From Planctomycetota bacterium (GTDB lineage Bacteria > Planctomycetota > UBA1135), in the NCBI GenBank assembly GCA_014382805.1, contig JACNIZ010000233.1, forward strand, positions 1 to 34,177: a stretch of 34,177 nucleotides of DNA. Reading direction: 5' to 3'. The stretch's first letter is position 1. Every line of letters begins with the position of its first letter. The notes beneath the pieces were generated by a model. The model had not been told where the DNA came from, searched no databases, and saw only the letters and a program-made list of their open reading frames with translations. Below, piece after piece: positions 2-8,430 of the stretch. The translations under genes were made by a program, and so were the position numbers.

Positions 2-97
2 ATCCGGTGGGGCGTTGTAGTGAATACAGATAACAAGGCGCTGCACCGGACGCCAATTCCGCTGCGCTCCATTGCCGCCGGTGAGCTTGGTCGTTAG
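2..97 (+). CDS. C-terminal fragment of an ORF entering from the left edge; reads IRWGVVVNTDNKALHRTPIPLRSIAAGELGR* through the attC site
   Basis: Frame 2 is open from base 2 to TAG at 95-97. The tail is the translation of the attC element, so it is probably a cassette-encoded C-terminus or an incidental reading through attC. Confidence 0.4.
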   Translation: MRWGVVVNTDNKALHRTPIPLRSIAAGELGR

Positions 98-99
98 GC
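28..99 (+). repeat. Integron attC-like recombination site (59-base element)
   Basis: 3' core GTTAGGC at 93-99 matches GTTRRRY. The left end has ...TAACAAGGCGCTGCACCGG and the right arm CCGGTGAGCTTGGTCGTTAGGC. The arms are imperfectly complementary (CCGG/CCGG plus AACAAG.GC / GAGCTTG.GTT), with GC-rich inner sequence between. The 5' inverse core is degenerate (AGATAAC). Confidence 0.7.
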
Positions 100-150: not shown

Positions 151-912
151 ATGGCAAGCAAATCTGAAATTGCCATAAGGGTTGAGGCAATCGAAAGCCT
201 TGGCTCGCACCTTCATAATGAAGTTCTCTTTGCTCGTAAGTTTGTCGCTGAGTCTGAGAGGCCTGCAATTGAAAAGGAGTGGATGACCTGTGTTGATAAT
301 GCTTGCAACTACTCGGCCTTTCTTCTGAAGTCATTCTTGGATTCAATTGATAAATATAGCGGACTCCCAATTGAGCAGTTTTCCTTTTATGTTGGCAAAC
401 TTGCGATCCAGCACTTGCTAGAGGTGATCAATGTATTTGAGCAAATTCTCAATAAGTTCATTGTTCAAAATAGCAGAATAAGAACCCTCATCGAAAGGAG
501 GATTGATAGAAAAGTGGAAGTCATTGAGCGGTGCTGGGCGAGCGACTGCACAGGGAACGATAAAAAGCAAAAGAAAGCTATTGTCGGAATGTATAAGAGC
601 AAAGTGCGCGAAATGGCTTTTATTAGGCAATCCCTTTCCGGTGCAGGGGTAATTGACAAAACGGACCGAGACATTTGGTCCTTTGCCTGGGACATCCGAA
701 ACAGTATGCATATGAATTTCACCGCGACTAAAGCAATTGATTTCCAATACCCTGATATCCGGACTGGAAAAATTTACCAATTCAAATTCGCAAAGGGCGA
801 GGAGCTCTACCACCCTCAGGATTTGCTTGACTTCTACATCATCACGGAGCAGCTCATCTTTATTCTTCTGAAAATCCTCTCCCATTTTGATAAAAATGAG
901 GAACCAGCCTAA
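151..912 (+). CDS. Hypothetical protein, possible cassette-borne ORF, with a HEPN-like 'RNSMH' segment
   Basis: 253 aa ORF directly downstream of the attC core; no recognisable full domain. C-terminal third contains WDIRNSMHMNF. Confidence 0.6.
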   Translation: MASKSEIAIRVEAIESLGSHLHNEVLFARKFVAESERPAIEKEWMTCVDNACNYSAFLLKSFLDSIDKYSGLPIEQFSFYVGKLAIQHLLEVINVFEQILNKFIVQNSRIRTLIERRIDRKVEVIERCWASDCTGNDKKQKKAIVGMYKSKVREMAFIRQSLSGAGVIDKTDRDIWSFAWDIRNSMHMNFTATKAIDFQYPDIRTGKIYQFKFAKGEELYHPQDLLDFYIITEQLIFILLKILSHFDKNEEPA

Positions 913-955
913 CCATGCGTGACAGCCGATTGTGGATGAACCCCCTCCGTTAGCC
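907..955 (+). repeat. Candidate degenerate attC-like site
   Basis: GCCTAAC (907-913) matches RYYYAAC and overlaps the upstream ORF stop codon. GTTAGCC (949-955) is nearly GTTRRRY. The internal arms pair poorly. Confidence 0.3.
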
Positions 956-3076: not shown

Positions 3077-4378
3077 CTAGGAGCAAAGGTTATTTGCGGC
3101 ATCCATTGCGCCATTGCAAATGGAATCAAATAACTTGCCAGGAAATCCTTTTGGAAGTTTCTGTCCGGTTTTAGAGACAGCGCCTTCAACCTCTTTTGAA
3201 ATGGAGGCAAGTTGAGCTTCCATTTGTTGACCTAAACCCACAGCACTGGCATGAGCAAGCCAATGTCTCGCACCGACTTCCTGCCATCGGTAGTGTCGGT
3301 TTTTGCTCGATACAGCCATCGCCATTTTTAGTTGGCGAACCGGGAGTTTGTTTCGTCCATGTCCGGAGATTGGGTAAGCCGAATGCACGTCGTATAAAGG
3401 CGTCAGGCGAAAGTCGCCGCCGGCGAGGTGCTGAATGCTGAAATTTTTGCCGTGGCCATCTGGGGCTTGGAGCACCCAGAGTAGAACTTGAGTACGGAAA
3501 AAGGTCCAAGCGTCTTGCGGTTGGCTGGACCCGGCGCGAAGCAATTGAACGCAGGATGTAATTCCCGGTCCGCCGTCGCTCTCATATTTTTGCCGCGGTG
3601 GTACAGCCATCGCTTGGCAAAAATCTTCCTGTGGAAGACGCATCCACCATTCTCCATTCGGCGCTAACTTTCGATCAAAGCGTTCGACTGCCAAGCAAGA
3701 CCAATCGCCAAAGTCGAGGACTTCCGATTTTGCAGTTGGGATGCCCAGGGCATTCAAAAGTTGAGCGCACAACCACTCGTTTTCCAACGAATGTGGCATC
3801 GGAACATCTCCAACTTGTTGCAGTGGAAGTTTGAAAATGTGTGTCGTCGGGGTGGAACCTATCGGTCGGCACCACTTGCCTTCATGAAATAGGAAAGCAG
3901 TTTTCTCTTGTGCGCCAGCAAGTGAGATGCGGAAGGGAGTTCCTTCATCAGCCAAGTATTGCGCCGGATGAGCAGTGCGTCGCAGTTCATCCGCGATCTG
4001 TTCTTCGGTTAAAGCACGGCACTGAATCGTGCGTACGTTATCCGGCGTTTGGCCCGGTGCAAGCAACTGAACCGCGCCGACGCAATCCCGTCCGATTTCT
4101 TTGAGCAACTCAAATGGTGTTTGTCCAACTCCAAAGCGTCGCGCGATTTGCTCTCGAATTTGAGCTGAATCTGGAAGCAGGTTCTCGAACCAATCACCTA
4201 CGAGCGGACCTTTGATCCAATCATCGGCGGTTGCCGGCCAAGGGAACGAAGCGGAAAGACGTCGGCTTGCTGGAGAGGCAAGCCAAGAGGCGGCGTAACG
4301 GAATCGATCCGCCCCGTTGGAAACATGCTCCCATTCGCCAACCAATTCACCGTTTTGCCAGAGGTGTAAAGAGCCCAT
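3077..4378 (-). CDS. hipA: Type II toxin-antitoxin HipA-like serine/threonine kinase toxin
   Basis: RISLAGAQEKTAF, PDGHGKNFSI and YDVHSAYP motifs of HipA kinases; immediately follows a HipB-like XRE gene. Confidence 0.9.
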   Translation of the reverse strand: MGSLHLWQNGELVGEWEHVSNGADRFRYAASWLASPASRRLSASFPWPATADDWIKGPLVGDWFENLLPDSAQIREQIARRFGVGQTPFELLKEIGRDCVGAVQLLAPGQTPDNVRTIQCRALTEEQIADELRRTAHPAQYLADEGTPFRISLAGAQEKTAFLFHEGKWCRPIGSTPTTHIFKLPLQQVGDVPMPHSLENEWLCAQLLNALGIPTAKSEVLDFGDWSCLAVERFDRKLAPNGEWWMRLPQEDFCQAMAVPPRQKYESDGGPGITSCVQLLRAGSSQPQDAWTFFRTQVLLWVLQAPDGHGKNFSIQHLAGGDFRLTPLYDVHSAYPISGHGRNKLPVRQLKMAMAVSSKNRHYRWQEVGARHWLAHASAVGLGQQMEAQLASISKEVEGAVSKTGQKLPKGFPGKLFDSICNGAMDAANNLCS

Positions 4379-4380
4379 TT

Positions 4381-4629
4381 TTACCAGTCCGTTTGGGCCG
4401 CGTTGGTGGGGTCGGGTTTCTCAAGCAAGCCTAGATTGAGATCGAGGGCCATGAGCAATTTGAGTAGTGAGCTCAGTTGGCAACTGCCCGGTTTGTTCTC
4501 GAGGGCGGATATGGTTTTCGGCAATAGCCCGGATTGCTTGGCTAGGTCCGACTGAGTCAATCCGAGCCGTTGGCGTTGCAGCCGCAGAGCTTGCGCGAGT
4601 TGTTGCTGGTTGAGGGCGCGGACGGGCAT
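4381..4629 (-). CDS. hipB: HipB-like XRE-family antitoxin/repressor
   Basis: 82 aa HTH_XRE: LAQALRLQRQRLGLTQSDLAKQSGLLPKTISALENKPGSCQLSSLLKLLMALDLNLGL; 2 nt gap to hipA. Confidence 0.9.
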   Translation of the reverse strand: MPVRALNQQQLAQALRLQRQRLGLTQSDLAKQSGLLPKTISALENKPGSCQLSSLLKLLMALDLNLGLLEKPDPTNAAQTDW

Positions 4630-6954: not shown

Positions 6955-7029
6955 TCGAGTCGTTCAAATGGGCGATGCCTGTCCCAATCTTGGTGCGTCT
7001 AGCAAGCTCGCACTTGGTGGGTTGTATCG

Positions 7030-7075
7030 CCCCTGCGGGGCTGACGGAGCGGAGCGAAATCTGCCCCCGCAGGGG
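7030..7075. repeat. Inverted repeat / stem-loop, 11 bp perfect stem
   Basis: CCCCTGCGGGG (7030-7040) and CCCCGCAGGGG (7065-7075) separated by 24 nt; no T-run follows. Confidence 0.6.
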
Positions 7076-7224
7076 AGGGCGGCAAACTCTTCCGGAGTTA
7101 GGTAACCCTATTCCGTGTAATAAAACTATTGCACACCTAGCCCAGCCATTCAGCGGGTCCATATTCCACACATCAACGTTGGTGAGGGCAGGGTCATTCG
7201 GATGTTCAATTCAAGATGCATGGT

Positions 7225-8430
7225 TCAAATTAATTCGCCGACTTCGATTGTTTGGAGGTCAGCGATGGATTCCGATCCGTCGAGTGAAAAACGTAGTACC
7301 GAATTGCGGTGTTCCTTCGGGAAATTAATCGCGGTCAGGATAGGCGATTCGGTGTGGCCGTGCGCACTGCACGCGGAGCCAGATCCACAGCTAATGCCTT
7401 TGGTTTCCAGCATATGCAGCAGAGTTTCGGCGCGGGTGCCGGGGATGGCAACGCTCAGGATGGAACCCATTACAAATTCCGGATCCGTCGGGCCGGCGAC
7501 GATTAGGTCGGGCACGGCTAGGCGCAGGTGGTTGAGCAATTCGGCGTGACGCTTTAGGTAGCGATCGGGGTCTTCCACCAATCTTTGACGACGGACCTCG
7601 GCCGCTGCGGCGAAGGCTGCGGCGCCCATGACGTTTTCGGTTCCGCTGCGCAGGCCGTATTCATGGCCGCCACCTAAAAACATGGGCACGGGAGCGGGGG
7701 TGCCGTCCTTCAGGAACAGCGCGGCGCAACCCCGGATTCCGCCCATCTTGTGCGCGGCTACAGAAATGGTGTCGGCGCCTAAAGAGTAGAGCGACTCGGG
7801 ACGTTTGCCGGCGGCTTGCACGGCGTCGCAATGGAAGCTGGCATGCGGTGCTTTTTGGCGGGTGAGCGCAACTAGGTCGGCGATTGGACTTAGCGATCCG
7901 AGTTCGTTGTTGGCCCAGTGCACGATGACTAGTGCTACATCCTCAGCCAGCATGGGCGCGAGGGCGTCGGGTTGGATGACTCCTTGAGTGTCCGCTGGGA
8001 TTAACTCAACATCGAAGCCTTGTTTCCGCAGGCTGAGTGCGGAATCCATCGACGACGGGTGCTCGATTGCACCGACCAATACTCGTGGATTGCCCGACGC
8101 ATTGGATTTAGCGGCGGCCAGAAGTTTGGCGTTGGTCCGCACACGCTCTGCCATGCCAAGTATGCCTAGATGGTTGCCCTCCGTCCCGGTCCCCGTCCAA
8201 ATCAACCGGTAATTCCGAGCACCCAACGCCTTGCTCAACTTCTTCCTTGACTGATCCAACGACCGCGCCGCCAACGCACCTAAACCATGCAACGATCCAG
8301 GGTTAGCGTAGGCAGTCTTAGACGCTTTTATAAACGCTTCCATCGCCTCGGGCAGCGGTGGAGCCGTCGCGGCGTGATCCAAATACAACGGCGTGGCCAG
8401 GGGGGCCGGGGTGGGGTCGTTAGCAGGCAT
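7225..8430 (-). CDS. Cysteine desulfurase (aminotransferase class V, NifS/IscS-like)
   Basis: YLDHAATAPP N-terminus, TGTEGNHLGI, HCDAVQAAGK, PLP Lys in SVAAHKMGGIRG, active-site Cys in SCGSGSACSAHG. Confidence 0.9.
   Translation of the reverse strand: MPANDPTPAPLATPLYLDHAATAPPLPEAMEAFIKASKTAYANPGSLHGLGALAARSLDQSRKKLSKALGARNYRLIWTGTGTEGNHLGILGMAERVRTNAKLLAAAKSNASGNPRVLVGAIEHPSSMDSALSLRKQGFDVELIPADTQGVIQPDALAPMLAEDVALVIVHWANNELGSLSPIADLVALTRQKAPHASFHCDAVQAAGKRPESLYSLGADTISVAAHKMGGIRGCAALFLKDGTPAPVPMFLGGGHEYGLRSGTENVMGAAAFAAAAEVRRQRLVEDPDRYLKRHAELLNHLRLAVPDLIVAGPTDPEFVMGSILSVAIPGTRAETLLHMLETKGISCGSGSACSAHGHTESPILTAINFPKEHRNSVLRFSLDGSESIADLQTIEVGELI

Follow-up and report, generated by a model that had tools for sequence, protein, structure and literature searches.

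The window is a whole contig of 34,177 bases (C57) from a Planctomycetota MAG of 402 contigs that is 84.6% complete, and its first base is a contig end. At this left edge lies an integron attC site, whose R' core and paired arms had been recognized in the first-pass annotation. Multi-phylum relatives, strong covariation and an IntI integrase encoded in the same genome all bear out that identification. The features at this end of the window, all on the forward strand, are as follows.

28–99, forward strand: attC site, 72 nt from R'' to R', with the bottom strand as folding strand (basis: sequence, blastn relatives, covariation, covariance model)
28–34, forward strand: R'' box, AGATAAC (basis: sequence and alignment of relatives)
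93–99, forward strand: R' core, GTTAGGC (basis: sequence)
31–33, forward strand: TAA within R'', which would close frame 1 (..YPVGRCSEYR)
18–20, forward strand: TAG, which would close an upstream gene in frame 3 (..SGGAL) and overlaps GTG 20–22 as TAGTG
20–97, forward strand: candidate coupled mini-ORF across the attC site, GTG 20–22 to TAG 95–97, MNTDNKALHRTPIPLRSIAAGELGR; the class is backed by statistics, and the window copy presumably belongs to it
151–912, forward strand: next ORF, 253 aa, with no Pfam match and no relative; its stop TAA lies inside GCCTAAC
907–955, forward strand: possible second, degenerate attC site, GCCTAAC ... GTTAGCC (P about 0.04 within the first 1450 bases, by shuffling)

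Structure and relatives of the attC site

The R' core matches the GTTRRRY consensus, and the R'' box deviates from the complementary RYYYAAC at its outer bases, as it does in many relatives. The crossover point is presumably located between G93 and T94 of the R' core, as expected for attC sites in general. Over 41 related sites, the 25 stem pairs are 90.5% standard, and 15 of them show double changes, indicating that in this imperfect palindrome the structure is conserved rather than the sequence. The covariation score of the stem was 0.303; shuffles gave 0.115, and sliding the partner gave no more than 0.058. Compensatory change was observed in 97 cells, compared with 34 in shuffles, and this signal also disappeared when partners were slid. 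The stem of the window copy is standard except for a single internal mismatch at base 53. In the model, the top-strand A at base 51 (T on the bottom strand) has no pairing partner; it is invariant in the 45 unique cores counted, a set whose selection required this A.

Several measures are less informative for the window site alone. Its single-strand DNA fold is unexceptional (z −0.82), about one chance match to a loose R''/R' pattern is expected per window, and Rfam at gathering thresholds gave zero matches in the window. The covariance model scores the site at 91 bits, partly by construction, as the window is one of its 41 rows. The apical loop (bases 56–70, bottom strand, and related loci) reads GCGNAGC with a variable N, a motif known from DNA mini-hairpins of very high stability, and might aid folding of the bottom strand.

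Blastn found sites 91–96% identical to that of the window on plasmids from three unrelated bacteria, Geoalkalibacter, Citrobacter and Thiolapillus. A degenerate pattern located near-identical sites at 50 places on 49 named genome contigs. These represent about 15 phyla or lineages: Pseudomonadota, Cyanobacteria, Chlorobi, Chloroflexi, Nitrospirota, Desulfobacterota, Planctomycetota, Acidobacteria, Zixibacteria, Actinomycetes, Bacillota, Verrucomicrobia, Bipolaricaulota, Nitrospinia and one Bathyarchaeum MAG. MAGs are numerous among these carriers, and individual placements may reflect binning errors. The contig binned as Candidatus Bathyarchaeum (SOJY01000013.1) carries attC sites at 1755–1825 and 3621–3691, which represents either an archaeal integron or misbinning. 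A site is also carried by a Planctomycetota record of 94,130 bases (JALUUL010000072.1) from the same order as the window genome. Viral contigs yielded neither the attC-like pattern nor an exact match to the 29-mer upstream of the site, and no attC site was found in phage records.

Bases 28–99 are thus a genuine integron attC site, of a type that occurs in many bacterial phyla. It resembles the attC (59-base element) of gene cassettes in its R'' and R' boxes, L arms, unpaired stem base, compensatory stem changes and position after a cassette gene; it differs in that it belongs to a 69-nt type whose sequence varies unusually little from phylum to phylum. In published work, attC sites resemble one another more closely inside a genome or order than they do across orders, and cross-phylum matches of 95–100% have also been reported (PMC9668308). 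Near-identity across phyla is the mark of a widely exchanged cassette pool. The site looks functional and, as an attC, would be recombined by IntI.

Integron context in the genome

The genome encodes an integron integrase of 325 aa at 4443–5420 of contig C97, separate from the contig of the window (TIGR02249, 427 bits against a cut-off of 265). Its best PDB match is IntI4 (2a3v, E 9.8e-86), to which it aligns nearly end to end, and the profile and this alignment both show the IntI-specific extra domain. C97 stops about 100 bp past intI, where cassettes should begin; intI and the attC site each lie near a contig end. In a genome of the same family (G003), intI is followed downstream on one molecule by a cassette and then by a 93% identical attC site. 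We infer that C97 and the window contig are linked; the site at 28–99 is probably part of a chromosomal integron of this Planctomycetota genome, with the assembly broken inside the cassette array.

The first-pass annotation had pointed to further attC sites as a check. This yielded the weak candidate at 907–955, which has weak inner arms and was missed by the covariance model; neither that model nor a genome search found another convincing site in the genome. That scarcity would fit a solitary or relic attC site unconnected to the genome's integron, as would the location of the best intI match, which in those same-family genomes that were examined is on another contig than the homologue of the gene at 7228–8430; synteny between the two was not found in relatives. 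The break in C97 at the expected cassette start, the fragmentation and incompleteness of the MAG, and the good preservation of the site, in which only a single stem pair and the outermost bases of R'' deviate, make such a relic unlikely. A relic would be consistent with each of the readings of the frame across the site.

Covariance-model matches elsewhere in the genome, including window 7020–7088, were rejected, as the best of them are hairpins that have the apical loop alone in common with the attC site. The bottom-strand apical loop GGAGCGNAGCGNAAT has 8 exact matches in the genome, one of them in the attC site, compared with 0 for a reversed control pattern. The hairpins bearing it, at window 7020–7088 and on contigs C159, C178, C208 and C303, lack R boxes, and their stems vary from copy to copy.

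The ORF at 151–912 is a probable cassette gene, with zero relatives in plasmids, viral contigs and 10 same-family genomes. It is preceded by no obvious Shine-Dalgarno sequence (..TCCTCCTCACCTAAATG), so that translational coupling would be useful to it. Adjoining the cassette-like region, a HipA-like kinase and a HipB-like HTH partner are encoded on the minus strand at 3077–4629.

Stop positions of upstream cassette genes

From base 2 onward, frame 2 is uninterrupted and reads IRWGVVVNTDNKALHRTPIPLRSIAAGELGR up to the stop TAG 95–97, as noted before and confirmed by translation. Two explanations had been offered for this openness: that the site gives unrelated proteins a shared C-terminal peptide, or that the openness is incidental. 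The openness itself, together with a few short ORFs among the relatives that end in the same peptide, would agree with a tail on the upstream cassette protein. The stop positions of upstream genes, however, rule against it. The longest upstream ORF was traced at 101 unique sites, which gave 75 ORFs of at least 100 aa. The TAA of the R'' box closes 22 of these, making it the commonest single stop position for upstream cassette genes of this attC type, while 47 stop earlier and 6 enter or pass the site. A total of 69 of the 75 therefore stop before attC or at the R'' TAA, and only one enters in the reader's frame, ending early after a frame change.

Annotated records are in agreement. In three annotated plasmids, the region matched by blastn lacks any annotated gene, and TrlF, an annotated gene of an E. 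coli plasmid, terminates exactly at the R''-box TAA. The peptide, NKALHxTAIPLRSIAAGELxR, is indeed found again after upstream DNA that is unrelated, but there it ends short ORFs and not full-length proteins; it has no match in PDB sequences, and nothing relevant was present among the literature matches listed. A tail is improbable in the window as well, because the R'' TAA is present here too, along with the frame-3 TAG at 18–20. We regard this explanation as extremely improbable.

A proposed mini-ORF across the attC site

The reader's frame is open across the attC site at 79 of 94 sites, compared with 54 and 22 for the other two frames. This constitutes weak, non-independent evidence, because the stem sequence is inherited. 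The upstream DNA, in contrast, differs between sites, and start codons located there are therefore informative. In the first set, an uninterrupted in-frame ATG at most 45 nt upstream was present at 36 of 86 sites, compared with 14 for the next frame and with a mean of 17.0 (largest 22) for control offsets upstream in the same frame. A second set of attC sites was collected with the covariance model after this effect was known; it has some genomes in common with the first, and the test was left unchanged. An in-frame ATG occurred at 26 of its 81 sites used, as against 14.2 in the control (largest 20) and 7 in each of the other frames. Once related upstreams were removed, the three frames had an in-frame ATG at 60, 18 and 10 of 156 sites. 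The 60 sites exceed both the 29.7 expected from the offset controls (binomial, 1e-8) and the 18 of the next frame (McNemar, p 4e-7). An ATG or GTG start followed by an open frame up to R' was found at 58, 13 and 1 sites, respectively. Nevertheless, about 60% of the sites have no such upstream ATG, and with GTG counted the excess of the second set over the offset control is weak (binomial p 0.074).

The starts often overlap the stop of the upstream gene (ATGA, TAATG). ATGA was found at 10 of the 23 gene ends whose phase puts the ATG in the mini-ORF frame, compared with 7 of 86 otherwise. In a class 1 aadA cassette, TAATG occurs in this phase too, and the ORF there stops inside the stem. In the window copy, the overlap is TAGTG (18–22); the mini-ORF start would be GTG 20–22 instead of ATG, the weaker case, and the upstream gene lies off the contig. 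Selection on the peptide beyond that on the stem was not detected by a permutation test (synonymous fraction 0.344, compared with 0.273 under the null; P=0.13), and one bottom-strand frame performs equally well. Third-codon pairs had at first looked the most variable, a hint of such selection that this test did not bear out.

These observations can be accounted for by a mini-ORF that crosses the attC site and is coupled to the upstream gene by overlapping stop and start codons. The upstream cassette gene would most likely end at TAG 18–20 or at the R'' TAA 31–33 rather than at 95–97, and the open frame would be a separate short ORF. Ribosomes finishing the upstream gene may restart at the overlapping start codon, which is ATG in many relatives and would be GTG 20–22 here. 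By translating the mini-ORF, they would open up the hairpin that attC forms in the mRNA before stopping at TAG 95–97, near the next cassette gene at 151, to the presumed benefit of that gene. This TAG occupies positions 3–5 of GTTAGGC, which means that the stop would be supplied by the next cassette.

Openness may instead be incidental in an ordinary attC site: the stem happens to be open, the ATG excess reflects gene ends near R'', and the site is untranslated. The stem accounts for the conservation of the peptide (P=0.13), and its inheritance deprives the 79 of 94 open sites of independence, both of which favor this explanation. A frame-specific ATG excess that is seen in two sets and persists with related upstreams removed, and stop-start overlaps clustered in the right phase, argue against it and suggest that the openness may not be incidental; we give this explanation slightly less than an even chance. 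The coupled mini-ORF is the best-supported alternative to the tail and stands at about even odds with incidental openness. That the window site is of the widely exchanged type and that its open frame is such a mini-ORF is, in our assessment, a finely balanced proposition.

Related ideas exist for class 1 integrons. Stem-loops of attC in mRNA reportedly hinder ribosomes (PMC8876359), and for class 1 cassettes a short ORF inside attC has been put forward as a means of relieving this block, as outlined in section 3.2 of that paper, which cites Jacquier 2009. The termination-reinitiation mechanism proposed there is the one proposed for the coupled mini-ORF; what the present analysis shows is a frame-specific statistical signal in a single attC type over many phyla. 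The ORF-11 of attI1 likewise has TAG at core positions 3–5, with the next cassette supplying the stop (section 3.1). It is similar to the window ORF in being a short ORF over the recombination point that takes its TAG from positions 3–5 of the GTTRRRY of the next cassette. In contrast, the window ORF lies within attC, and its start overlaps the stop of the preceding gene.

More tentatively, and with some doubt on our part, many attC sites could act as a translational relay, in which a mini-ORF in fixed phase with the crossover would be entered from the preceding stop and closed by the stop of the next cassette, such that any cassette order would stay coupled. Gene cassettes are mostly promoterless. 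A relay ORF in the recombination site would, if true, explain the expression of distal cassettes in whatever order, and would offer a testable prediction applicable to any attC site. At one related locus (L188, attC 523–593), R' lacks a stop and the attC frame continues into the downstream ORF, 326 aa in all, possibly as an N-terminal extension of the next cassette protein.
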